This document shows positions 37,097 to 51,778 of a DNA stretch of 51,778 nt, piece after piece (position 1 is the first letter of the stretch; every line of letters starts with the position of its first letter). This stretch comes from a bacterium (lineage in GTDB: Bacteria; Patescibacteriota; Patescibacteriia; S139-126). A program made the position numbers and the translations under genes. The stretch covers positions 1-51,778 of the forward strand of contig DAOUWZ010000006.1 in the NCBI GenBank assembly GCA_030666865.1, written 5' to 3'. The notes under the pieces were generated by a model that was given only the letters and a program-made list of their open reading frames with translations, was not told the origin of the DNA and ran no database searches.

Positions 37097-39958
37097 TTAC
37101 TTAAGTCTCCCTCCCTGCATCCGACCACCTTGTAATCTAACCCCTTGTCCCTGATTTGCCATAGTAAAATTGTTTACTGAAGAAGTAGCGGAAATAACAC
37201 CATCATGATCCCAGTACCATGTTCGCCAATAATAAACTGTATTATTCAAAGACAATGCGCTTCCAGAATAAGATATATCTTGACAACGATCACCTTGATC
37301 ACAAGTACTCCCAGAAAGCGGATCAGAGTGTGATATTGACATATCAATGTTATCAATATAAGCGTCATCACTAAATCCAGAAACATCATCTATTGTGCAA
37401 CGCACACCAAAATCTATATCTTCTACTATTGTTTCTGTTAAACTAACCCCCCATATATCAGTATTACCACCCATAGTCTGTGTAACATCACTGCCACTGT
37501 CAGTAGAAATGCTCTTAGTTGTACCAGTTGCATTTCCATTATTATCTAGTAATTGACAATCAGCTTTCTTGGGACCGAATTCCGATTGCCACTCTATTCT
37601 TACTTCCACGCCATTAATATCATCTCCAGAGGGTATGCTGAAACCAAAAGTATCAACATCAATAATTTGATTATCTGAACATGTTGCTCTGGTATCATTT
37701 GAAGTATAAACATTAGCAGGATTTGTACAAGTTGAACCAGTTCCATTGCTTGACGGATCAGTAAAATCAATGATTGTCATAAAACTGTTACCAGTATTAC
37801 AATTATCACCATCACTAGTCCACATATCAGTTCCAGTAAAATCAGAAGCAGCGTTGACCTCCACACACCACTTAGTAGCATAATCATCTAAATTTGGATC
37901 TTGAAAAACTGATGAAAATTCTGGAGTAATATCTGCCATATTAACCGGATTAAGCATATTTTCTGCCAGTAAATCTGCTGGCGCAGTCGGATCTTTATCT
38001 TCTACTGTAAATGTCCCTGATGAAGAAGAGGAACAAGCATCCTCGTCGTCACAAACAAAAGCATAATAATCTTTGGCAGTCCCAGAAGCCTCGCTAAGAC
38101 TAGTGGTGTAAGAACAAGTCTCTGGGTCACGATTGGTAAATACTGGTGAATCACACCAACTTCCTCCAGTACAGCTGGCAGATGATATAGCATTAGTTTT
38201 ACAAATATGCGCTTTAGCCATTTCTCCGCTGTCTGCATCATTCCAATCCACTGTAAAATAAGTGATATCGCCAGCTGCTACTGGATCAGGTGAATCTGAA
38301 ACTGAAGTTACTGTTGGTGCGTTATTAGAACTAGCAGTATAAGTAATTTGTATATCAATATTATCCACCAGCAAACTTCTTGCTGGAGTTCCAGATGTTT
38401 TAACTGTTGTACACCTTACTCCAAAATCAGCATCTTCAATATCTGCTTCAGTAAGCGAAGTTCCCCACATATCAGACGTCCCTCCAATTGTATATGCCAC
38501 ATCACTGGTAGTAGTCCAATTTGAAGTATTTTTAGTATTACCAACTGGGCTTCCGGAAGCATCAAGTAATTGACAGCTAGCATAATATGTTGCCGGAACA
38601 TTATTAATAGCTGCTTCAACTCTAACTTCAATCCCGTCAATACTTGTACTGGTAATTGCAAAACCGAAATTATCAACATCAACCACGCCTTGACTAGCTG
38701 TTGGATTACAACCCGTATCAACATCATTTGAAGTATAAGCATTAGCCGGACTAGCACATGTACTACCAGTGCCATTGCTAGAAGGATCTGTGAAACCAGT
38801 AGCATCATCATTGGCTATTTGCCATTTTCTATTTTCCTGCCAAAATATTTCCCCATTATCACGATAACTCCTTATTCCCATAGTGAGAGGTCCAAGCAAA
38901 TAAAATTCTGGCGAGATATCTGGCGCGTCAAACTCATATAAAAATTCATAGGTTTCACCTGCCTTAAAATCAACTAGCCATGTAATTTCTGATAAAAACC
39001 CATCAACACTATGCACTTCCCCGCCGCTATTATAAACTTCAAAACTCTGTGGCAGGCGTTCATTTAAAAATCCCTGGTAATCTTCATTGGCCTTAATAAT
39101 AAATTTCATTTCATAAATAGCTTTTGGCCAAATACGAGTCGGACCAATCCGCTCTACTTCAAAAGGTAAATATTCTTTTACTTCTACAAAATCCTTAAGT
39201 GAACGCTCACCATTTTTGGTTCTAGCTGTTAATTCCAATTGATAAATTCCAGCTCCAGCTAAATCATAATAAGCGTAATAGTCAGGCGTATCAATCACAT
39301 TATTTGGTCCGCACTCTGAATTATTAATAATAACTTCAGCAGGAGCTGAGCTCCTGTGATAGGAGCTCAGCTCCTGCTGATTTAAAATCTTAACCTCACC
39401 ATCAGGTGAAGTTATTCTCAATTCTAACTCCGCATCACAAATTGTATTACCAAAATCATCCAATACGCCTATTTGTAAATAAGCCTGCTCGTTTAGCAAA
39501 TACATGGATTTATTGGTATTGATAGCTAACACTCCCCAATAAAAATCCTGACTTAAATCTCTTATTCCTTGTGATGTGGGTAAATAAGCTGTAACCGTAT
39601 ACTTACCTGGCCTGAATCTAGAACTAATTGGTGTGACATTCACATCAACCACACCTTGATCATTAGCTTTAAAATTAATATCAAAAAATTTTGAATTATC
39701 ATTCCCTTTTGCATCTACTAATTCAATTTTTCCCTGAGTACTTAAATTTTCATAATCAAACCCGCCTCGGGGAGGACTGACTGCGAATTGAGCTGGTCTT
39801 GAAGCTGCCAATACTTCTGGCACGCTTTTAATCAAATAATCTTTCAACACAATCTCGGTTTGTTCTTCTGCTGGACCAAGAAATACTATTAGAGCTGTCA
39901 CTACTGAGACTACTGAAATTAATGTTATAATTATTATCTTAGAAAATTTTAGTTTCAT
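37097..39958 (-). CDS. Large membrane-anchored surface protein with duplicated domain
   Basis: 953 residues. An N-terminal anchor or signal segment is at about 7-29. Residues 60-380 are Ig/macroglobulin-like strands (RFRPGKYTVTAYL, KSMYLLNEQAYLQIGVLDDF). Two copies of a 150-residue domain follow at about 385-540 and 728-877. Each begins FTDPSSNGTGSTC and contains VEVRI/VEVRV, CQLLD and the DFGVRCT strand, with a fibronectin-like region between. The C-terminus ends GVRLQGGRMQGGRLK. Near residues 193-208 the palindrome at 39336-39380 adds QELSSYHRSSAPAE, a stretch unlike the surrounding domain but almost the same as an insert in the RAYT transposase. Its role is probably adhesion. No family name is certain. 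Confidence 0.65.
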   Translation of the reverse strand: MKLKFSKIIIITLISVVSVVTALIVFLGPAEEQTEIVLKDYLIKSVPEVLAASRPAQFAVSPPRGGFDYENLSTQGKIELVDAKGNDNSKFFDINFKANDQGVVDVNVTPISSRFRPGKYTVTAYLPTSQGIRDLSQDFYWGVLAINTNKSMYLLNEQAYLQIGVLDDFGNTICDAELELRITSPDGEVKILNQQELSSYHRSSAPAEVIINNSECGPNNVIDTPDYYAYYDLAGAGIYQLELTARTKNGERSLKDFVEVKEYLPFEVERIGPTRIWPKAIYEMKFIIKANEDYQGFLNERLPQSFEVYNSGGEVHSVDGFLSEITWLVDFKAGETYEFLYEFDAPDISPEFYLLGPLTMGIRSYRDNGEIFWQENRKWQIANDDATGFTDPSSNGTGSTCASPANAYTSNDVDTGCNPTASQGVVDVDNFGFAITSTSIDGIEVRVEAAINNVPATYYASCQLLDASGSPVGNTKNTSNWTTTSDVAYTIGGTSDMWGTSLTEADIEDADFGVRCTTVKTSGTPARSLLVDNIDIQITYTASSNNAPTVTSVSDSPDPVAAGDITYFTVDWNDADSGEMAKAHICKTNAISSASCTGGSWCDSPVFTNRDPETCSYTTSLSEASGTAKDYYAFVCDDEDACSSSSSGTFTVEDKDPTAPADLLAENMLNPVNMADITPEFSSVFQDPNLDDYATKWCVEVNAASDFTGTDMWTSDGDNCNTGNSFMTIIDFTDPSSNGTGSTCTNPANVYTSNDTRATCSDNQIIDVDTFGFSIPSGDDINGVEVRIEWQSEFGPKKADCQLLDNNGNATGTTKSISTDSGSDVTQTMGGNTDIWGVSLTETIVEDIDFGVRCTIDDVSGFSDDAYIDNIDMSISHSDPLSGSTCDQGDRCQDISYSGSALSLNNTVYYWRTWYWDHDGVISATSSVNNFTMANQGQGVRLQGGRMQGGRLK
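39336..39380. repeat. Palindrome (family A) inside the 953-residue protein gene
   Basis: A 20-bp perfect stem (TCAGCAGGAGCTGAGCTCCT and its complement) with a 5-nt loop GTGAT. It is 45 nt in total, divisible by three, and reads through as QQELSSYHRSSAPAE. It shares arms with the 44-nt perfect palindrome at 47181-47224. Confidence 0.9.
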
Positions 39959-39974
39959 TTTTTTTATTTATACA

Positions 39975-40083: not shown

Positions 40084-43000
40084 TTACTTAAAATATGAAC
40101 TAAACCCACCATTATATTCCCGTATAATATCCTCTGGAGTCAAAGCGTAATTCCAAACTTTTACTTCATCAATCTGACCATTAAAAGGATAAATACTACC
40201 GCCTAACATGCCAATATATGAAATACCACTGCCAGTATCAATAGAATTAGCTGTAATATTAGAATAATTATCCTCTACACCATTTACATAAATACTCAAA
40301 CGACCATTATTGCTCTTACTATACGAGCCACATAAATGAGCCCAAGTATCTTTTAAATCCGTCAAAGTCTTAAGACTGCCTATAGTCTGTGTTCCGCTCA
40401 TATCAACTCTAAAATTATATTTAGTTGTATCAGCAAATAATAAATAACTAGTATTAACTGCACCACCAACAGTTTTCTCAAAAACACCAGCATTACCCGA
40501 AGTAATACTTGAGTACACCCAAGCACAAACAGTTAATTCATCAGTTATCTGTAAATCTGTATTATCATCTATATTAATTTCATCATCAGTATCATCAAAA
40601 TCCATACTACCATTAATTTTCCCGTTTGAGCCATTACTCCACATAGTTGAGGTGGAAGTATTTGTTCCACCAGTTCCAGGATAAATAGTCCCGTTATTAG
40701 AATTACCAGAATAATCATAAGCAGTCCCACCCTCGCCTTTATCAAATTTCCAATATCCTACAGGATCGCCACCTGAGTATTCTTGAGCTACTTGTCGCGG
40801 AGTCAATGCATAATCAAATATTTTTACTTCATCAATAAACCCAGCCCATTCTGTGTTATAAGAACCAGTATAACGAGCTCCTAAAACCAATCGGCTGTTG
40901 GAATATACAGGAATACCTGTCTGACTTTTGGAATTATCCAAAGATCCATCAATATATAATTTCATAGTGCTTCCGTCATAGGTTCCAACTACATGATTCC
41001 AACTACCTGGTATTAATGCCTGCTGAGCTGTTAATTCTGTAGTCGCGCCATTTATATACATTCCAAACTGCATTATGTCAGGAGTTGATTGAGCATATTC
41101 TATTCTAAATTGCAGAGAAGTTGAATCACCACCATTTTGATAAGCAATCGGAAAAGAAGCTGAATTACCTAAAGCTGGATTCATCCACATAGAAAATGAA
41201 AAATTATTTTTCAAATCTCCCAAAACGCCGTTATCGATATAATCACCATCACCATCAAACTCCAGACAAGATCCTACCTGGCAATCCGTTGCACTCTTCC
41301 AAGTAGCATTAGTAACAGTGCCAGAATTACCTCTGCCAGAATTATCATAAACTGTATCCCCGGTCTTCTCATCTATTTTCCAATGCGCAACTGGTGACGG
41401 ACCTTCTGTATAATCGCGCATTATTTGTTCTGATGTACGGGCGTAATTATAAATTTTTATGTCATCAATTTGTCCAGTGAAATCATCATAACTAGAACTT
41501 CCCTTATGCCTGCCAATCCAAAAATAATTATCATCCAAATCACCGCATTCTTTATTAAGTCCATTATCATAATAATATTCCTCACCATTTATATATAATC
41601 GAACTTCTCCTTTTGGATAATCCCATACCTCGGTAACAAAATACCAAGTATCTGAAGCAATAGTAAGATTTGGAATGGTGATTCCATTATTATAAGTTGT
41701 TTGACACCAACCACCAGCATCATTCCAAGAACTTCTGGCTATCATTAATTCATTACTTGAATTTATCCAAACTCCACCACGGTTATGAGTACTTAAATCA
41801 GGATTAGCGCCATCACCACTAACAGATGATAATACTGCATAAATATATTCTCTGGATGTTGGGCTAACTGAAGTAGGATTAAACCAATAACTTATAGTTT
41901 CTGTTCTTAAATTTAAACCTGTTTCCAAAGCAGCATTAATTTCAACATAATCTCCTGTACCATCAAATGTTCCGGCTCGGCCATATTTTGCTGTTGATGT
42001 CGTGCTAGCATCACCAGAACGAGATGCATGTTTTTCTCTTCCAGAATAATCCCTAATCTCATTACTAGCGCCACTCCACGAACTCTCATCCATTTTCCAG
42101 TGGCCAACCAAACCTTCAGCTGAATTCTGTACTTCTTCTTTTGATTTTGATAATACTATTTGTTTACCTTGATTATAATTTTGTCTTATTTCATCAAGAG
42201 TTAATGCGTAATTATACAACTTAAACTCATCTATAACTCCGTCAAAATAACCATAATCAGTTGGTCGGTCAAGCACACCAATTTTAGCGCTATCAATATT
42301 ACTTAAATCTCCGTAAGAACCATTATTCGTTCCGCTTGCCAAAGTAGTAATTTGTTCTTCTCCATCTAAATAAATACTAACTTCACTTCCGTTATAACGT
42401 ACTGTTATATAATGCCATTTATTATCAAATAAATTAGTACCCGTACTTTCTCTGGCAGCCAAATTGTATTGTGAAGATCCGCCCACATTCCTGACAGTGC
42501 CAATAACTTCATCAGACCAAGTACCAGTATAATTACCAATTATAACATATTGTTCATTTTGTCCCGATGTATCCTTGTCACCTAAGGAAAAAAGTATATT
42601 ACTGCCACTATTATCTCCATTCATCTTCACCCAAGCCCCTATCGTAGCTGGCGCGTCAAAATTAAAAGTTGTCGGATTAGCTAATTCTATATAATCATTA
42701 TTCCCGTCAAACTTTATTGCTCTTCCAGTTTTTCCAAATTCAGTCCAAGCAGTTGAAGTCCCCGAAGTAGACATATTAGTCAGAGTGCCGTCGTTTCCCG
42801 AACCGGTCGTTTGTTTTGTGACTCCACTATCATAAGTCGTAGTTCCCTGTCCTTCGTCAAAACTCCAATAACCAATCGGATTATTTTTTTTACCAGCGTT
42901 CATGTCTTCTAATATTTGTCTTGATGTGCGAGCGTAATTATAGATACGGACATCGTCAATTCTACCTTCATGTTCTTCGCTATCATAAGTGCTTTGCCCA

Positions 43001-46000
43001 ATTGTAAAAACTGGGTTAGCAGGAGATTGATTATATGTAGATGGAATATCAGTTGATAAATCCTTAATACCATCTATATAGATAAACCTATTAACACCAT
43101 CATAAACAAGTGCCAAATGATGCCAATTTCCGTCATTTACAACTCCAGTAGAGGATAAATAATCCCAATTCCCTGTCCCATCTCTATCAATATAAGTTCG
43201 TAAAGTACCGTCAGTATTTTGACCAATAAGAAAACCTCCATGATTTAATCCACTAGAACCATAATTTAGTATTCTCGTAACTCCATCTTGGCTAGTACCA
43301 TCAATCCAAACTTCTGCCGTAAAAGCCGAGGTATCAAAACCACTTGGTGAACTAATTTCTATACCACTCACACCAGAACCATCAAAATCTAACGCACTGC
43401 CAAATTTACCACAATTCCAAATTGGAGTACCATTCCATTGAGTAGAAGTATTATTATTTCCGCTTACATCATAAGCCGTAGTACCCATACTCTCATCAAA
43501 TTTCCAATGCGCCACCGGTCCTGGCGCCCATTCATATAGATGACGGACTTCATCAGGTAACAACGCGCGGTTGTAAAGCCTGGCATCATCTACCTCACCA
43601 TTAAAAAACATTAAAAAATCATTAGTGTTTATCTCAATTGCCTGATCTAAATTTCCCTGAGCAACTAATTCACCGTTTAAAAATAATTTCTGCTGGTTAT
43701 TTTTTTCATTCATATTATAGGTCATCATAATATGATTCCACTGACCAGAGGTCATATCAGCTTCAATACGCTCATCATTTATTACTCCGGAAAAACTATC
43801 ATCATCAAAGGAAAGACCGTAAGAATTAGGCCGACCGAATTCTGACTCAACTGAATTAATATTCAAATTCTTAATATAAATCTCCTGAGCTGTTGTGCCT
43901 GAATAATTTGCTAAAAACATAATAGTCGCATATTCAGTGCCAGTATGCCAAACAGCTCTATTGCTTGTTACATCTGACTCGCCCGTACGTATAGCGCCAG
44001 AAATTATATTATTTCTTCTAAAATACCAGGTATCTTCAATAAATGTGCCATAACTATCTACAAAATAATCATAGCTGCCAGGATGACCAGGTAACCAACT
44101 GCCATCTATGGTGGCATAAGAATGCGTTCCACCATACAAACCTTTACCTGCATTAGCTTTTGTTTTAACATCATATTGCACAAAATAACCTTTACTGGTA
44201 TCAATCGGAATCTTTTGAGTAGTATACATATTATAGTAACTCACTGCCTTAAGAGCGCTTTCAGTCGCATCCCAACCCAAACTAGTACCAGTGGTACTTT
44301 TTGTCCAGGAATTAGAATTAGTCCAGTCAATACCATATACATCTAATAAATTCACTGTGGTAGTACCATTGCCCTTCACCCACATTCCTATGCTAATTTC
44401 TTCAGAAATATCAAAATCATTACTATCAGCAAAAGTAAAATAATCATCTATTCCATCCATATAACCTGCATTTCCAAATCTAGCTGTGGAAGTAACTATC
44501 GCATTGGTTGAGGTGCCGTGATTGCCATTACCAGACGAATCAATCACTTCACCTATCGTACCATTCCAAACATTCTCATCCATCTTCCAATAACCCACAA
44601 GTCCATCATTCAAACTCGCATATTCATTCTGTCCCAACATTACAGCTTTGCCACGATTATAATCTTGTTTCATTTGATCAGCCGTACGGGCGTAAGGATA
44701 AATTTTTACTTCGTCAAAAAATCCTGGAAAATTATTTGTCCAACCTGACCCACCATCATCGGCAATCTCGGCTGTTGCTGCAAAACTAATTGATCCTGAA
44801 TAACTTCCGGTTGAAATTTGCTGACCATTATAATAAAAAATCCAAGTGCCGCTGTCATAACTAAAACTTATATGTTGCCATTCATTTAAAATAAGATTTT
44901 GATTTACATTAATTGCCCCAGAATCAGCAATACCAATATTAATAGCAGGAGTAGAATTAATACCTACATACAAACGATTACCACCATTTTGATGACCAAA
45001 TAACATACTATTTGATGGAATTGCTCCTGTCGGCTTCACCCATAAAGAGACTGTTCCTTTTGTAGAACCAAAATTATCTGTGCCTACAGATACAACATCA
45101 TCACTCCCATCAAAATACAAACATCTACCAAACTTGCACTCTGATTCTGGTTTCCAAGTAGCGCCTGTTATAGTCCCGTCATTATTGTTTGGCGTTTGAT
45201 CGTATGTTGTACTTCCATACCCCTCATCAAAATTCCAATAAGCAACCGGCCCTGGACCTTGTTCTTCTGAAGCTGGCGTCCCAGCAGACTGATCTGATTG
45301 ATTTAGCGTGATATTATCCTCCCTGACCCAAACATATATTTCCTGAAATTTCCAAGGTGTAAGCCCGAGTCCGCTCTCTTCAGGTGAAGTATTATTCATA
45401 GTACTATTATAATTTGAACCATTCCATTCTAACTGATTAATTCCATGTCCACCCAAACCACCTAAATACATATAAGAATCATGGTCCGTAGTATTGTATT
45501 CCCCGTTAATAATTTGCCGCCAGCTATTACCATAACCACGAAGCATTCTAGCTAAAGTCTGAAACTGTACATCTTGATTTCCATCTATGTCATGAAATTT
45601 CACATCAGGATTTGGTGAATCTGGCTCATCATGCACCCAATCAAAATACCAACTAAAAGTTTGTGACATTAAAGCTGTCTCAGTGGTCGTACCTGTTTCT
45701 GATAAATTCCAATTTTGCGCTTCAATTATCATATTATTAAAAGGAATATTATTAGATATTTCAACATTCGTACCTGTATTTCTAGTCACTGATGTAGCTG
45801 AAGTACATAAACCATCATAAACTTTTATCCAACCACCCAAATCTTTTGTCATATTGCAAGTAACCTCAAATTTATCAGCTTTATTACCTGTTGATGTAAT
45901 GTAATACTGTCCATCCCCACTACTATCACCATGTTCCAAAATACTGCGGCATGAAATGCTTGGGTATTCGGTCGTGCCAATATTTATTTCACCATTATCA

Positions 46001-46422
46001 GCTGAAGAATTTCCATAATAAAGATAAATTGTACTGCCTGAAGTCGGTATATTATCAACCATTACCCAAACTGCAGTATCAGAATCATTACAATCATATT
46101 CAGTATCGCCGTCAATAAAAAATGGCAAAAGATCTCCGTTTACATTAGTGATTCTTAAATCATCACAATCTGTTTGCATCTTATCTGCAGTTATCAAAGT
46201 AGCAGTATCAACTGCAACTTTTACATATTGATTGGTTACGTCTGTACTTGAGCTATTAGTAAGCGCTGAGCTTTGGCGATAATACCACGTTTCATCAAAC
46301 CATCCAGCCTCTACCTCTTGACCCTGATTTCTAAAAATAATAAAAGATGCTGCTAGAACAACTATAACTACTGCTAGTATTGCCAAAATAGAATTCTTCT
46401 TTTGTCTTAATAATTTATTCAT
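40084..46422 (-). CDS. Giant DUF2341 / LamG-repeat surface protein
   Basis: 2112 residues. N-terminal signal/anchor at about 13-31. A DUF2341 domain follows (about 40-150; WFDETWYYRQSSALTNSS, then TIYLYYGNSSA). Next is a fibrinogen-like N-terminal segment with CRSILEHGDSSGDGQYYI and CNMTKDLGGWIKVYDG (about 155-210). Then come seven LamG/concanavalin-like lectin domains. Each opens with a line such as GPVAHWKFDE, GLVGYWKMDE or DPVGYWKFDK. Each closes with a line such as IDEVKIYNYALT or IDDVRIYNYART. LamG domains bind glycans or proteins, so this is probably a cell-attachment protein reaching far from the cell. The last domain ends near the C-terminus with FSSYFK; no C-terminal anchor was seen. 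It is one of the largest genes in the window, and the repeats are diverged enough to be old. Confidence 0.88.
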   Translation of the reverse strand: MNKLLRQKKNSILAILAVVIVVLAASFIIFRNQGQEVEAGWFDETWYYRQSSALTNSSSTDVTNQYVKVAVDTATLITADKMQTDCDDLRITNVNGDLLPFFIDGDTEYDCNDSDTAVWVMVDNIPTSGSTIYLYYGNSSADNGEINIGTTEYPSISCRSILEHGDSSGDGQYYITSTGNKADKFEVTCNMTKDLGGWIKVYDGLCTSATSVTRNTGTNVEISNNIPFNNMIIEAQNWNLSETGTTTETALMSQTFSWYFDWVHDEPDSPNPDVKFHDIDGNQDVQFQTLARMLRGYGNSWRQIINGEYNTTDHDSYMYLGGLGGHGINQLEWNGSNYNSTMNNTSPEESGLGLTPWKFQEIYVWVREDNITLNQSDQSAGTPASEEQGPGPVAYWNFDEGYGSTTYDQTPNNNDGTITGATWKPESECKFGRCLYFDGSDDVVSVGTDNFGSTKGTVSLWVKPTGAIPSNSMLFGHQNGGNRLYVGINSTPAINIGIADSGAINVNQNLILNEWQHISFSYDSGTWIFYYNGQQISTGSYSGSISFAATAEIADDGGSGWTNNFPGFFDEVKIYPYARTADQMKQDYNRGKAVMLGQNEYASLNDGLVGYWKMDENVWNGTIGEVIDSSGNGNHGTSTNAIVTSTARFGNAGYMDGIDDYFTFADSNDFDISEEISIGMWVKGNGTTTVNLLDVYGIDWTNSNSWTKSTTGTSLGWDATESALKAVSYYNMYTTQKIPIDTSKGYFVQYDVKTKANAGKGLYGGTHSYATIDGSWLPGHPGSYDYFVDSYGTFIEDTWYFRRNNIISGAIRTGESDVTSNRAVWHTGTEYATIMFLANYSGTTAQEIYIKNLNINSVESEFGRPNSYGLSFDDDSFSGVINDERIEADMTSGQWNHIMMTYNMNEKNNQQKLFLNGELVAQGNLDQAIEINTNDFLMFFNGEVDDARLYNRALLPDEVRHLYEWAPGPVAHWKFDESMGTTAYDVSGNNNTSTQWNGTPIWNCGKFGSALDFDGSGVSGIEISSPSGFDTSAFTAEVWIDGTSQDGVTRILNYGSSGLNHGGFLIGQNTDGTLRTYIDRDGTGNWDYLSSTGVVNDGNWHHLALVYDGVNRFIYIDGIKDLSTDIPSTYNQSPANPVFTIGQSTYDSEEHEGRIDDVRIYNYARTSRQILEDMNAGKKNNPIGYWSFDEGQGTTTYDSGVTKQTTGSGNDGTLTNMSTSGTSTAWTEFGKTGRAIKFDGNNDYIELANPTTFNFDAPATIGAWVKMNGDNSGSNILFSLGDKDTSGQNEQYVIIGNYTGTWSDEVIGTVRNVGGSSQYNLAARESTGTNLFDNKWHYITVRYNGSEVSIYLDGEEQITTLASGTNNGSYGDLSNIDSAKIGVLDRPTDYGYFDGVIDEFKLYNYALTLDEIRQNYNQGKQIVLSKSKEEVQNSAEGLVGHWKMDESSWSGASNEIRDYSGREKHASRSGDASTTSTAKYGRAGTFDGTGDYVEINAALETGLNLRTETISYWFNPTSVSPTSREYIYAVLSSVSGDGANPDLSTHNRGGVWINSSNELMIARSSWNDAGGWCQTTYNNGITIPNLTIASDTWYFVTEVWDYPKGEVRLYINGEEYYYDNGLNKECGDLDDNYFWIGRHKGSSSYDDFTGQIDDIKIYNYARTSEQIMRDYTEGPSPVAHWKIDEKTGDTVYDNSGRGNSGTVTNATWKSATDCQVGSCLEFDGDGDYIDNGVLGDLKNNFSFSMWMNPALGNSASFPIAYQNGGDSTSLQFRIEYAQSTPDIMQFGMYINGATTELTAQQALIPGSWNHVVGTYDGSTMKLYIDGSLDNSKSQTGIPVYSNSRLVLGARYTGSYNTEWAGFIDEVKIFDYALTPRQVAQEYSGGDPVGYWKFDKGEGGTAYDYSGNSNNGTIYPGTGGTNTSTSTMWSNGSNGKINGSMDFDDTDDEINIDDNTDLQITDELTVCAWVYSSITSGNAGVFEKTVGGAVNTSYLLFADTTKYNFRVDMSGTQTIGSLKTLTDLKDTWAHLCGSYSKSNNGRLSIYVNGVEDNYSNITANSIDTGSGISYIGMLGGSIYPFNGQIDEVKVWNYALTPEDIIREYNGGFSSYFK

Positions 46423-46745: not shown

Positions 46746-47378
46746 TTATTCCAAAATAAATTTTTGTATTTCTTTTTTTTCTTGCCAGACAGGGATTAAA
46801 TCTTGACAGTATTTTTTATAATCCTCTATTTTATTAAATTTATCTAAAACTATATTCTCCTTATTATTTAATTTTAAAAATTCTTGATAATTTGACCATG
46901 GATAATTTTCTACTTTCGCAATTTTATGAATTTCTGAGTTCATATGAATATATGCCGATAACCAAATAAGATATTCATCTGAATTTATATGTATAGCTTT
47001 AAATCGTCCTTGAAATAAACTGCCTGAACGCTTATTTCTAATATTAAAATAATTAGTATAACTAGTACTTAAACGATGCATGAATTTACTTATCCCTGCA
47101 TCTTCAAGCTGTTTAATAATAAAATGAAAATGATTAGGTAATAAATTATAAGCAAATATATCAATCAATTTTTGTGCAGGAGCAGGAGTTGAGCTCCTGT
47201 AATTACAGGAGCTCAACTCCTGCTTACGCAAACTACCAATAACATTTATATTATTAAATTCACGCAAACCTAACAAAAATCTTTCATAATCTTTTTTATC
47301 TATAAAAGTTTGGCGTCTATCTACTCCACGATTATAAATATGATAATAATTATTATTAACAAAATTTATTTTCCTCAC
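46746..47378 (-). CDS. REP-associated tyrosine transposase (RAYT, Y1/HUH) with in-frame palindrome
   Basis: 210 residues. The start is GTG at 47378, overlapping the TGA stop of the upstream gene as GTGA. The first residues RKINFVNNNYYHIYNRGVDR match the family N-terminus. The HUH motif NHFHFII is at residues 82-88 (His83, His85). The catalytic tyrosine is in the segment TSYTNYFNIRNKRSGSLFQG (Tyr107 or Tyr110). The C-terminal part has SAYIHMNSEIHKI. All key residues are present, so it may be active on REP-like palindromes by single-strand cut and paste. Unusually, residues 52-66 (KQELSSCNYRSSTPA) are encoded by a perfect 44-nt palindrome inserted between a beta strand and the HUH strand. The gene is embedded in a surface-protein gene series, not free-standing. 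Confidence 0.88.
   Translation of the reverse strand: MRKINFVNNNYYHIYNRGVDRRQTFIDKKDYERFLLGLREFNNINVIGSLRKQELSSCNYRSSTPAPAQKLIDIFAYNLLPNHFHFIIKQLEDAGISKFMHRLSTSYTNYFNIRNKRSGSLFQGRFKAIHINSDEYLIWLSAYIHMNSEIHKIAKVENYPWSNYQEFLKLNNKENIVLDKFNKIEDYKKYCQDLIPVWQEKKEIQKFILE
47181..47224. repeat. Perfect 44-nt palindrome (family A) inside the transposase gene
   Basis: The left arm AGCAGGAGTTGAGCTCCTGT with AA equals the reverse complement of the right arm, with no unpaired loop. The arms match those at 39336-39380 except for T/C changes that are compensated in both arms. The element reads through in the transposase frame. Confidence 0.92.
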
Positions 47379-50300
47379 ACGCCTTCCCCTCCCTGTAAAT
47401 CATTGCCGGTTGGTTGTAGAGTGTCTATATCAGTAACTTCTTCAGTATTTATTTCCGAGTTAGATATTTCTGTATCATTTACCCCGCCTTGCAAATCAAT
47501 TACTCCTTGATCATTAGATTGATCAGAATTAACTTCACTTGTGTCACCATCACCTTCTCCGAGATCATCTTGTTCTACTATTGCTTCCGTAGAGGTGCTA
47601 GTATCATCTTCAATAATAACCTGCCCGCCATAGACTGAGCCGTCAGGCGATGGCAGGCGGGCATCTGTTGTTGAAGTAGCGGTGGAAGTACCAATTTGAT
47701 CATCAATGTCAGCTTCGTTATTATCGTCATCTTCTACAACTGGGATATAAACATATTCTACTTGTGCTATTGGCTCTTCATCCTCTGGCTCTTCAATCAA
47801 AATTGTGGTTGTGGCAGTGGACGACGAAAATATATCGCTATAATCAACTGCTAAATATCCTTGTTGATTGATACTATAATTAAAACTCGGTTGGATCAAA
47901 AGTTCAGTGGTTGATTTGGCGATACCAATCACCTGAACATGCGCGCCATCTTCTTGAGCTTCCTGATAAGTAATCGTCCTTGATATTTTTACTATAGCTT
48001 CATCAGTAATTTCTTCTGCGCCTGCTACAGCTCCTTGCGATAAATCATCAGCCTGATCAATTAAATCATCAGTCTCACCAATCAAATCTGCTAATTCTTG
48101 GTCTTCCATGTTTTCCAATTCTTTAGCCCTGCTTATTTCGTCATTTAAACTTAAGAAATACCTGTTACCCGGAATCAAATTTTCATAACCCTTCACTACA
48201 CCACTAATTGCTACTTTAACCATTTTAAATTGCTCATAAAACTCATCATCATTTTCTATTGGAATAATTGCGTCACTTGAAGTTGGCGTACTAGTTGAAT
48301 TTAATCCGCTATTATCCGCTAATAATCTGTGTGAATCATATAAATCCTTCAAGGATTTAGGCATATTAGCAATATCTTCTTCACTTAACGATGTAAATGA
48401 CTTAATACCTACTGCAATACCAACTGCTGGCCTAAAATCATAATCATTAGCCCAAGTAGTCTGTACAGTATTGTCATCAACAACTGCTACTGCATCCCCT
48501 AATTCTAATCCGTGAAAATCTGTACCCAATCCGTGAGAATCAGTGCTTAACCAAAACCAACTAGTAATAGCGCCCGACAAATCAATATCTCCATCAATTA
48601 TAATATCTCCTTTAACCAATACCCGACCGGTAAATTCTGCATCAACCACTTGGATACTACCAGTAAATACTGCGGAACCCCGCACTTCAATATTTGCTAA
48701 TTCTTCATATTCTATCACTACAATTTGAGTATTGTTTGTATTATTTATCACAGTAATCTGCCCGTCGTCGTCTTCATCAATAACATCGTCAGTAGAAGTT
48801 GAGGTAGATGTACTAGTTTCCTGTTCATCTACTTCCAACTGAATATTATTATTTATATTAAGCAGAACCGATACATATCCAATCTCTTGATCACCAACAT
48901 AATCTTCCAACGCAATGCCCAAAGTACCAGCTGCTTCATCAACAGCTCTCATAGCGGCGCCTGGAATAGTAGCTGAAGTAGTTAACAATTCACCTCGCTT
49001 AATTTCCCCGTTTTCAGTAGTAACTTTTACCGGAGCTGTACCGGTTAAGACTACTGGCTGACCATGATCGCCAAATTGATCATATTTCAAAATGCCAGCC
49101 GGTGCAGTAGAGATTATGCCAAGAATCTGATTGGAATTACCTTCAAAGCTAAGCCTGGCCATAAATAATTTTTCTGATTCATTATCAGTATATTTACTAT
49201 TTACAACAACTACATCCCCAGGAGCGGCTTCAAATTCAAACACGCTCATTTCCTCAGCAAAGTCACCTTGTGTCCAAGCAGTGCCACCGGATAAATAAGC
49301 AACACCGTCAACTTCTATATCACCAGCAATATATACGTCTGAAGATGTAGAAATGGCAGATTGCCCTGGAGTACCATCGCCAAACTTAGTATAAGCAGCT
49401 GTTGAAGTAGTACCGACGGCGATAGAACCTTCAACTGCTAATTGCACCACTTCATCATTAGTTTGATTTTCAAACACTACTGTAGTAGTCGCAGTATTAT
49501 TAACATCAATAGTCAAATTAGTGCCAGTTGCCACTAAATTCCTGACTTTATAAGTAACACCAGAAACGCCTAAATCTATAGTATCACCATTTACACCCAT
49601 GGTTATGGTATTAGCTCCTTGCCCGGAAATTGTGGAAGATTCTTCAAATACCAAATTGGAAGCTGAGCCAACCGCGCCGATATAAACATCATTACCCGAA
49701 GTGCCTATTTCCACATTACCGGCATTTGTTGTAATAGCAGCATTAGATCCATTGTGAGCTAATTGCAAATAATCAGTGCCAGCTGAATCATATACTCGTA
49801 ATTGATTTGAATCATTAAATACAAATACCTCAGTACCATTATTTTCTAATACCAAAATATCACCAGTACTTTGTTGATTGATAGTCAGCGCATCTGAAGA
49901 CGAATTTGCAGTCAAGGTTGTTACGCCGGCATCAGCCACCTGAAATCTAACTGTACCAGCATCTTGAACTTGAAAATTACCAGTACCTTGAATATCTACT
50001 ACAAAATTATTGGTAGAAGTAAGGTCCCAAGAAACAGTGCCGTCATCTACCGTAATAGTACGCTCACCTGAATCAGTATTATAAGCCGTATCAAGCGATC
50101 CGCCGCCACCGCCAGCCGTCAAATCAGTTTCACTGCCAGAATCATCCATGAAATATAGTTTGGAATCAGATGACTTCACATAAATTTTACCGTAATTAGC
50201 ACTTTGAGTAGGCGCAGTTGTTTCCCGAAATGAAGTAACGCCCTCTATTGTAAGTAATTCATCAGGAGTGGTGGTACCAATACCAACATTACCTGAAGAA

Positions 50301-51778
50301 TTTACAATAAATCTATCACCATCATTCTGAGCTAATGAAGACACCATAAAATCACCAACTACCTCTAAATTAGCATCAGCATATAGATCTCCTATTCCTA
50401 CTTCTCCGCCATAACCAATGTTTAAAATATTTTGATTTACATAAGAAGAAAAATCATCATTCATACTACTAATACTCAAAACATTGGAATTTGAACGAAT
50501 ATCAAAAGATTGACGACCACTAGTTGCTCCAGAATCTCTTACTTGCAAAGCTCCATAATTTGAACCAGTGGCTCTAATCTCAGCATCTGCTTGATTTACT
50601 TCCAAAGAAGCGTCTGGCGTCATCGTGCCAATACCAACTCTATCATACTCATTTATATACAATACGCTAGCGCCAGTAGAAGAAGCGATATTGAGCATGG
50701 CAGTGCCAGCTGTACCTTGAAGAGCTAGAGTTTGTAGAGGGGAAGTAGTGGCAATACCAACATTACCGCCGGATGCTAAAGTCATAATATTAGAACCACC
50801 TACTGCCATGTTTAAATCCCCACTTCCAACATCAATATTACCATTAGTCTGATCGTGCCAAAATTTAAGATAATCTGAAGTTGAACCGGCATCAGCTGAT
50901 TGAATATAAAGAGTGGGATTGGTAGAAACGGCATGGCCAAAATTAGTGCCTCTGTCACTATCTTCAATAATAATAATATTGCCGCTTTGAGAACTGCTAC
51001 CCACATCTACGGTTAAAAGCAAGGCATTATTAGTCTGAGCGGTATTCCATGTAACACGCGCTGTTTCAGAACCTCCAAATATTACAGATTCACCAGAATA
51101 TACCTGCATATCAGTGTTAAGTTGAACGCCTGTGCCTGAACCGCTGAAAAGTGCCGGACCGTCCACTTCTAATTCATCCTCAACATACAAATCACCGTCT
51201 CCATCCATCCAATTCATTGTGCCTGCATTGCCTATTCTTGCTATTCCTCCTTGAACATCTAAAGTATAGCTGGGACTCGCCGTCCCAATCCCCACCCTAT
51301 CATTAAAACTATCTACAAACAAAGTATTAGTATCAACAACTAAATCAGTGGCTAGGGTAGTAGTAGCATCTACAAACATAGTAGAACTAGCATATAAATC
51401 ATCTTTGACCCAGACAGCTAATGTTGTTGATGGAGTAATTACTGACTCGCCATAAGTAGTATCATAAGTCCAATTAGAACCTGAACCTCCAATAACATTC
51501 AAAGTATTGCTGCTCCATGAAAGACCAGTGCCAGCAGTGATTCTGTTTGAAGGAGTATCATAGAAAGTGTTCCAATTGGTAGAGGAAGCAGTCAATACCA
51601 TGGAATAGTCAGTGGCTGGTTGAATGTTATCACCTGATATAGTAAGACCATTTGATGCAGTAGCATTGGTGTAAGTGCCAAAGTCTATGGCAGTGCCACT
51701 CCAAGTAGCATTAGTAATATCTCCTGCAGTAGATATATCTATTCCTGAAGATTGCAGAGAGAAAGTGCCTGAACCTGC
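47375..51778 (-). CDS. Fibre-like surface protein, 5' end beyond the window
   Basis: The frame is open from the window end. At least 1467 residues are visible and the true start is outside. The first 1000 residues carry phage tail-fibre/S74-like repeats with the marker VGIGTxxP (VGIGTASPSYTLDVQG, VGIGTMTPDASLEV, VGIGTTTPDELLTIEG) mixed with Thr/Ser/Gly-rich strands. A domain with EMSVFEFEAAPGDVVVV, ILGIISTAPAGILK and GELLTTSATIPGAAM follows, a type frequent in large surface proteins of uncultured bacteria. The last 200 residues are acidic (Asp/Glu/Ser/Thr). In this tail residues ARLPSPDGSVYGGQ come from the 42-nt palindrome at 47620-47661. No chaperone-type intramolecular protease ending was seen. 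It likely forms an extended adhesin. Its stop overlaps the start of the transposase gene. Confidence 0.75.
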   Translation of the reverse strand, partial: AGSGTFSLQSSGIDISTAGDITNATWSGTAIDFGTYTNATASNGLTISGDNIQPATDYSMVLTASSTNWNTFYDTPSNRITAGTGLSWSSNTLNVIGGSGSNWTYDTTYGESVITPSTTLAVWVKDDLYASSTMFVDATTTLATDLVVDTNTLFVDSFNDRVGIGTASPSYTLDVQGGIARIGNAGTMNWMDGDGDLYVEDELEVDGPALFSGSGTGVQLNTDMQVYSGESVIFGGSETARVTWNTAQTNNALLLTVDVGSSSQSGNIIIIEDSDRGTNFGHAVSTNPTLYIQSADAGSTSDYLKFWHDQTNGNIDVGSGDLNMAVGGSNIMTLASGGNVGIATTSPLQTLALQGTAGTAMLNIASSTGASVLYINEYDRVGIGTMTPDASLEVNQADAEIRATGSNYGALQVRDSGATSGRQSFDIRSNSNVLSISSMNDDFSSYVNQNILNIGYGGEVGIGDLYADANLEVVGDFMVSSLAQNDGDRFIVNSSGNVGIGTTTPDELLTIEGVTSFRETTAPTQSANYGKIYVKSSDSKLYFMDDSGSETDLTAGGGGGSLDTAYNTDSGERTITVDDGTVSWDLTSTNNFVVDIQGTGNFQVQDAGTVRFQVADAGVTTLTANSSSDALTINQQSTGDILVLENNGTEVFVFNDSNQLRVYDSAGTDYLQLAHNGSNAAITTNAGNVEIGTSGNDVYIGAVGSASNLVFEESSTISGQGANTITMGVNGDTIDLGVSGVTYKVRNLVATGTNLTIDVNNTATTTVVFENQTNDEVVQLAVEGSIAVGTTSTAAYTKFGDGTPGQSAISTSSDVYIAGDIEVDGVAYLSGGTAWTQGDFAEEMSVFEFEAAPGDVVVVNSKYTDNESEKLFMARLSFEGNSNQILGIISTAPAGILKYDQFGDHGQPVVLTGTAPVKVTTENGEIKRGELLTTSATIPGAAMRAVDEAAGTLGIALEDYVGDQEIGYVSVLLNINNNIQLEVDEQETSTSTSTSTDDVIDEDDDGQITVINNTNNTQIVVIEYEELANIEVRGSAVFTGSIQVVDAEFTGRVLVKGDIIIDGDIDLSGAITSWFWLSTDSHGLGTDFHGLELGDAVAVVDDNTVQTTWANDYDFRPAVGIAVGIKSFTSLSEEDIANMPKSLKDLYDSHRLLADNSGLNSTSTPTSSDAIIPIENDDEFYEQFKMVKVAISGVVKGYENLIPGNRYFLSLNDEISRAKELENMEDQELADLIGETDDLIDQADDLSQGAVAGAEEITDEAIVKISRTITYQEAQEDGAHVQVIGIAKSTTELLIQPSFNYSINQQGYLAVDYSDIFSSSTATTTILIEEPEDEEPIAQVEYVYIPVVEDDDNNEADIDDQIGTSTATSTTDARLPSPDGSVYGGQVIIEDDTSTSTEAIVEQDDLGEGDGDTSEVNSDQSNDQGVIDLQGGVNDTEISNSEINTEEVTDIDTLQPTGNDLQGGEGV
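47620..47661. repeat. 42-nt palindromic element in frame inside the fibre-like gene
   Basis: Aligned in reverse orientation with the 43-nt insert at 8507-8549, it keeps both ends (CCTGCCCGCCATAG and GGCAGGCGGG) and the middle GCCGTCAGGC, with one base fewer. The 42-nt length is divisible by three, and it encodes 14 residues within the acidic tail. Confidence 0.88.

Follow-up and report, generated by a model that had tools for sequence, protein, structure and literature searches.

Why does a transposase gene carry a long palindrome in its own coding sequence, and could this palindrome be a target of the encoded enzyme? The gene in question lies in the 51,778-nucleotide stretch of DNA analysed here (the window), which is contig C32 of a genome assembled into 55 contigs (1.09 Mb in total). 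It occupies positions 46749-47378 on the minus strand, encodes a RAYT-like Y1 HUH transposase of 210 aa and is tightly packed between two other genes, its GTG start overlapping the stop of the upstream one. Within it, at 47181-47224, a perfect 44-nt palindrome (AGCAGGAGTTGAGCTCCTGTAATTACAGGAGCTCAACTCCTGCT), built as a REPIN-like doublet of two small palindromes, is read in frame as codons 52-66 (peptide QELSSCNYRSSTPAP). As a single strand, it folds far more stably than its shuffled versions (z = -8.7), and the chance that the window contains a perfect 22-bp arm at any position is about 51,778 x 4^-22 = 3e-9. An imperfect inverted repeat (GCCCGCC ... GGCGGGC, ~26 nt apart) is also found at 47616-47662, in frame in the 1408-aa ORF directly upstream of the transposase gene; its core is single copy in the genome.

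The protein matches Pfam Y1_Tnp (PF01797) above cut-off (E=7.5e-9). Against NCBIfam REP_Tyr_transpos (NF047646), which has a cut-off of 80 bits, it scores 41.5; this is the score of a diverged relative, and we therefore call the enzyme RAYT-like. PHROGs gave no match. A profile search of PDB sequences gave none either, so that folds were compared instead: the best Foldseek match of the AlphaFold2 model, with a TM-score of 0.71 normalised by target length, was 4er8, a structure of the E. coli RAYT in complex with a REP hairpin, and the IS200/IS605 TnpA structures 2vjv and 2xo6 were among the structural matches. The HUH-motif region (residues 81-86, PNHFHF) is encoded at 47121-47138 on the minus strand. 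Ahead of the HUH strand, residues 48-64 (codons at 47187-47237, minus strand) are predicted to form a disordered surface loop, modelled with low confidence (pLDDT <50) beside a confident fold. The initial annotation had described a real, perfect and in-frame 44-nt palindrome at residues 52-66 of an enzyme retaining its catalytic motifs, and on both points it was right: H83 and H85 of the HUH motif and the candidate catalytic tyrosine, Y143, are invariant in 13 aligned members. Its placement of the palindrome 'just before' the HUH motif is to be taken loosely, since the palindrome-coded segment ends ~16 residues ahead of NHFH, which begins at residue 82.

Pattern searches of the source genome revealed three copies of this palindrome family (palindrome A), two of them in coding sequences. 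The second copy (20-bp arms, 5-nt spacer) is located at 39336-39380, ~8 kb from that of the transposase gene, within a 956-aa ORF that reads it in frame (peptide QELSSYHRSSAPAE); the third is intergenic, on another contig (C12:30937-30978). The 956-aa ORF (37100-39967) is one of three very large ORFs with repeated motifs around the transposase gene, the others being those of 2112 aa (40084-46422) and 1408 aa (47375-51601); all three are possibly surface proteins. The genome encodes a second RAYT, on contig C26, and this one carries a different palindrome, B, in the same pre-HUH loop. Palindrome B is present in seven copies, four in coding sequences: in addition to the second RAYT, it is found in frame in queA, queG and miaB. 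Compared with relatives lacking the palindrome, QueA is 15 aa and MiaB 14 aa longer, exactly at palindrome B. These palindromes thus resemble Rickettsia palindromic elements in their behaviour, and here the genome also encodes a candidate enzyme. The four coding copies of palindrome B, of 40-46 nt (G000 C27:10152, C2:18499, C21:2231 and C26:8444, or L213, L216, L217 and L212, for queA, queG, miaB and the RAYT, respectively), are always read as QTSDV..S..HRMS, and all three non-RAYT hosts are tRNA-modification genes.

Copies of this kind speak for passive insertion, in which mobile palindromes moved by the RAYT and compatible with protein coding would land everywhere, survive in two tolerant loops of the RAYT and be refreshed by exchange, with no function in the gene. 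We regard this as a serious possibility, though a minority one. Autoregulation, for its part, cannot be the reason for the presence of palindrome B in queA, queG and miaB.

The initial annotation had treated the palindrome within the gene as a single case and had proposed a comparison of homologues with and without the insert. Such a comparison was carried out on 207 loci, gathered by whole-genome searches, from GTDB contigs and by direct fetches, which included 169 RAYT ORFs with both main motifs, mostly from Patescibacteria, a large group of very small, uncultured bacteria. It reveals a recurrent architecture: 74 of the 138 long-loop RAYTs (54%) have a palindrome in the pre-HUH loop, against a background of 1.6% of 30-nt windows in neighbouring CDS and ~1% in other coding windows of RAYTs. 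A clear loop palindrome is absent from the other 46%, some of which keep degenerate ones. On the tree, the state of this main site changes at least 34 times under the detection threshold, a number which is partly noise. A second site, 210-240 nt after HUH and near the C-terminus, holds a palindrome in 19 of the 138 long-loop RAYTs, and the short-loop clade uses a third internal site. Accordingly, the metagene profile of palindromes peaks only at the 5' end, the pre-HUH loop, the +210..240 nt loop and the 3' end. Passive insertion gains from two of these features, namely the location of internal copies in variable loops and the third site of the short-loop clade.

The initial annotation would have been refuted by close homologues all sharing one unrelated natural loop of the same length and sequence. 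The opposite is seen: palindromes located at the same loop in homologues are unrelated in sequence. As for chance or an assembly artefact, the expectation of ~3e-9 already spoke against them, and they are refuted by the finding of this architecture in dozens of independent genomes that come from several projects, leaving this explanation with practically no probability. In one RAYT (L009, G012:C20), the pre-HUH segment is very long and contains an imperfect tandem duplication, with NHSESNSLGKVKMVKVNGNLQEGIGSL present twice, which looks as if loop inserts had multiplied. Outside Patescibacteria, a small sample was examined: the E. coli rayT plus seven RAYTs of Proteobacteria, Cyanobacteria and a Chloroflexota plasmid. 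None of these eight has an internal copy of the palindrome flanking the gene; where their palindromes are paired, they lie in the flanks.

Does the internal palindrome correspond to those flanking the same gene? Flanking palindromes are present at 119 of the 138 long-loop RAYTs; 70 of these 119 and 4 of the 19 others have an internal one, an association which loses significance on correction for relatedness, the corrected test having no power. A strong flanking palindrome is present at 114 RAYTs, and 61 of these (54%) match it within their own CDS at a score of at least 11; with palindromes exchanged between loci, matches drop to 2%. Raising the score to at least 16 gives 43% and 0 of 1,140, respectively. 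Copies in the gene, upstream and downstream occur together at 48 of the 114. The density of the own palindrome is 0.95/kb in the RAYT body, 0.24/kb in nearby non-ORF DNA and 0.02/kb in nearby ORFs. This fourfold excess over non-ORF DNA and 40-fold excess over ORFs counts against passive insertion; random insertion followed by purging of coding hits does not explain it.

Copy number in whole genomes also bears on this. One genome (G382, locus L070) contains exactly three copies, located 5' of, inside and 3' of the RAYT gene. G389 has related variants elsewhere, but the exact variant exists in three copies, all of them at the RAYT; both distributions speak against passive insertion. In three other genomes (G387, G392 and G393), the RAYT has three copies and the rest of the genome one or two, copies being assigned by conversion of locus coordinates to those of the contigs. 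G220 has 31 palindrome units, and its RAYT contains a single unit; on its contigs C2 and C3 palindromes are mostly direct doublets 52 bp apart, unlike the lone RAYT-internal unit.

The suggestion that the gene contains its own target is therefore supported at the level of the family, where the internal palindrome matches the gene's own flanks and tracks them. It does not carry over directly to the window gene: no further palindrome copy was found flanking it or nearby, although flanking by cognate palindromes is among the traits by which RAYTs are recognised, and the link between this enzyme and its palindrome thus rests on family analogy.

The way in which the inner copy evolves points in the same direction. 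Its identity is 86% with its own flank, 58% with the inner copy of the nearest relative and 53% for random pairs, and the own flank was the closer of the first two in 64 comparisons versus 7 (p = 6e-12). An inner copy so much nearer to its own flanks than to its counterpart in a relative indicates concerted evolution with the flanks. Position and palindromic form are preserved while the sequence turns over on both arms. In two Nomurabacteria with closely related RAYTs (L097 and L109), the central asymmetric bases of the upstream palindromes are reversed, TCCAA versus TTGGA, which suggests flipping or re-insertion.

Two further explanations would place the selected feature outside the DNA itself. 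In the first, which we consider very improbable, it would be the encoded peptide, acting as a DNA-contacting loop, with the palindromic DNA incidental. The loop does adjoin the HUH strand. However, encoded peptides differ between relatives, the inner sequence tracks flanking DNA and the palindrome centre is found in all codon phases (32, 19 and 5 cases in the three phases and 5 at half positions, n=61). In the second, improbable but less so, an mRNA hairpin would be sensed by the RAYT or the ribosome, giving translational autoregulation or mRNA stability. The hairpin is stable, and palindromes are close to both ends of the gene, with a median distance of 19 nt from an upstream palindrome to the start codon and of 3.5 nt from the stop to the beginning of a downstream one. 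The sense strand, however, has no excess of mismatches of the G:U type: GT and AC stem mismatches number 8 and 10 in the loop (site 1), 18 and 17 upstream and 18 and 15 downstream, so that pairing is kept equally on both strands. The mRNA-hairpin autoregulation proposed in the initial annotation is thus not favoured. With reading frames varying between loci and G:U mismatches not in excess, DNA appears to matter rather than the peptide or the mRNA fold; judged from sequence comparison, the conserved entity appears to be a DNA element.

REPtrons, TIRtrons (TIRYT genes with terminal inverted repeats) and REPs within other genes are described in PMC3733652, and Rickettsia palindromic elements in frame in conserved coding genes in PMC3733652 and PMC10969869. 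Like RAYT/TnpA_REP proteins with their REPs and REPINs, the Patescibacterial system comprises a Y1 HUH enzyme of RAYT fold, palindromes hugging the gene on both sides, doublets and a fast turnover of palindrome type. It differs in that known repeats lie outside the transposase gene, whereas the Patescibacterial copy occupies a fixed loop within the CDS. As with REPs and REPINs, which are often inverted doublets, the short palindromes are dispersed in multiple copies, with low copy numbers for A and B and a higher one in G220. REPs and REPINs are mainly extragenic and have a GTAG/CGTC tag; of the copies here, two of three for A and four of seven for B are coding. The in-frame insertion into conserved genes, here queA, queG, miaB and the 956-aa ORF, recalls the Rickettsia elements. 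These are longer (~150 bp, compared to 20-46 nt for Patescibacterial palindromes) and no enzyme moving them is named in the passages of the same papers considered here; in Patescibacteria, the same palindrome is present in the gene of a candidate enzyme.

IS200/IS605 TnpA share the HUH/Y1 chemistry and recognise the hairpins at the ends of the element in single-stranded form, as the RAYT-like enzymes may do. Their hairpins are subterminal, at the ends of the element, and we know of no hairpin copy in the transposase reading frame. In our literature search, which left subscription journals and preprints outside, no paper was found that describes a RAYT whose reading frame contains its own palindrome, nor one that links RAYTs to Parcubacteria.

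How might the inner copy work? Our preferred reading, held with modest confidence, is that the RAYT-type enzyme has a copy of its recognition element, the palindrome, in a loop of its own gene, and that this copy is a cis-target for self-limitation; the fold match to the hairpin-bound RAYT 4er8 speaks for it. The palindrome, a REPIN-like doublet in the clade of the window RAYT, would be carried in frame in the disordered surface loop. All copies would be substrates of the enzyme in the form of single-stranded DNA hairpins, and cutting, exchange or re-insertion would keep them alike. The RAYT may bind and cleave the palindrome, and self-cleavage and autoregulation may follow. The inner copy would then serve as a cis-acting site giving the enzyme a hold on the gene that encodes it. 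A layout of this kind exists in lacO2, an internal operator in lacZ, where a regulator binding site lies within the CDS and further sites are found upstream; the likeness is in layout only, Patescibacterial palindromes being mobile and fast evolving. Finally, the inner target would limit the expression or activity of the enzyme. This is the least certain step, about evenly balanced against passive maintenance. We lean towards a functional cis-site because copies are denser in the RAYT body than in the non-coding DNA around it, with passive maintenance close behind.

A wider proposal can be offered only tentatively, as it seems to us rather unlikely in its full extent. In Patescibacterial RAYTs, the internal target would match the current specificity and serve as an operator or self-target limiting the enzyme; enzyme, flanks and CDS palindrome would co-evolve as a three-site unit; and the family would be the mover of in-frame palindromes such as the Rickettsia ones.

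Two questions are open in the field: what moves in-frame palindromes, and why RAYTs persist in single copy without spreading. A RAYT that contains its own target in its reading frame, and in which this target is renewed together with the flanks, would tie these two questions together, and would mean that protein loops can be written by mobile palindromes. The family also makes available dozens of natural enzyme-palindrome pairs in which the target may be read directly from the gene, so that both specificity and self-control become testable.
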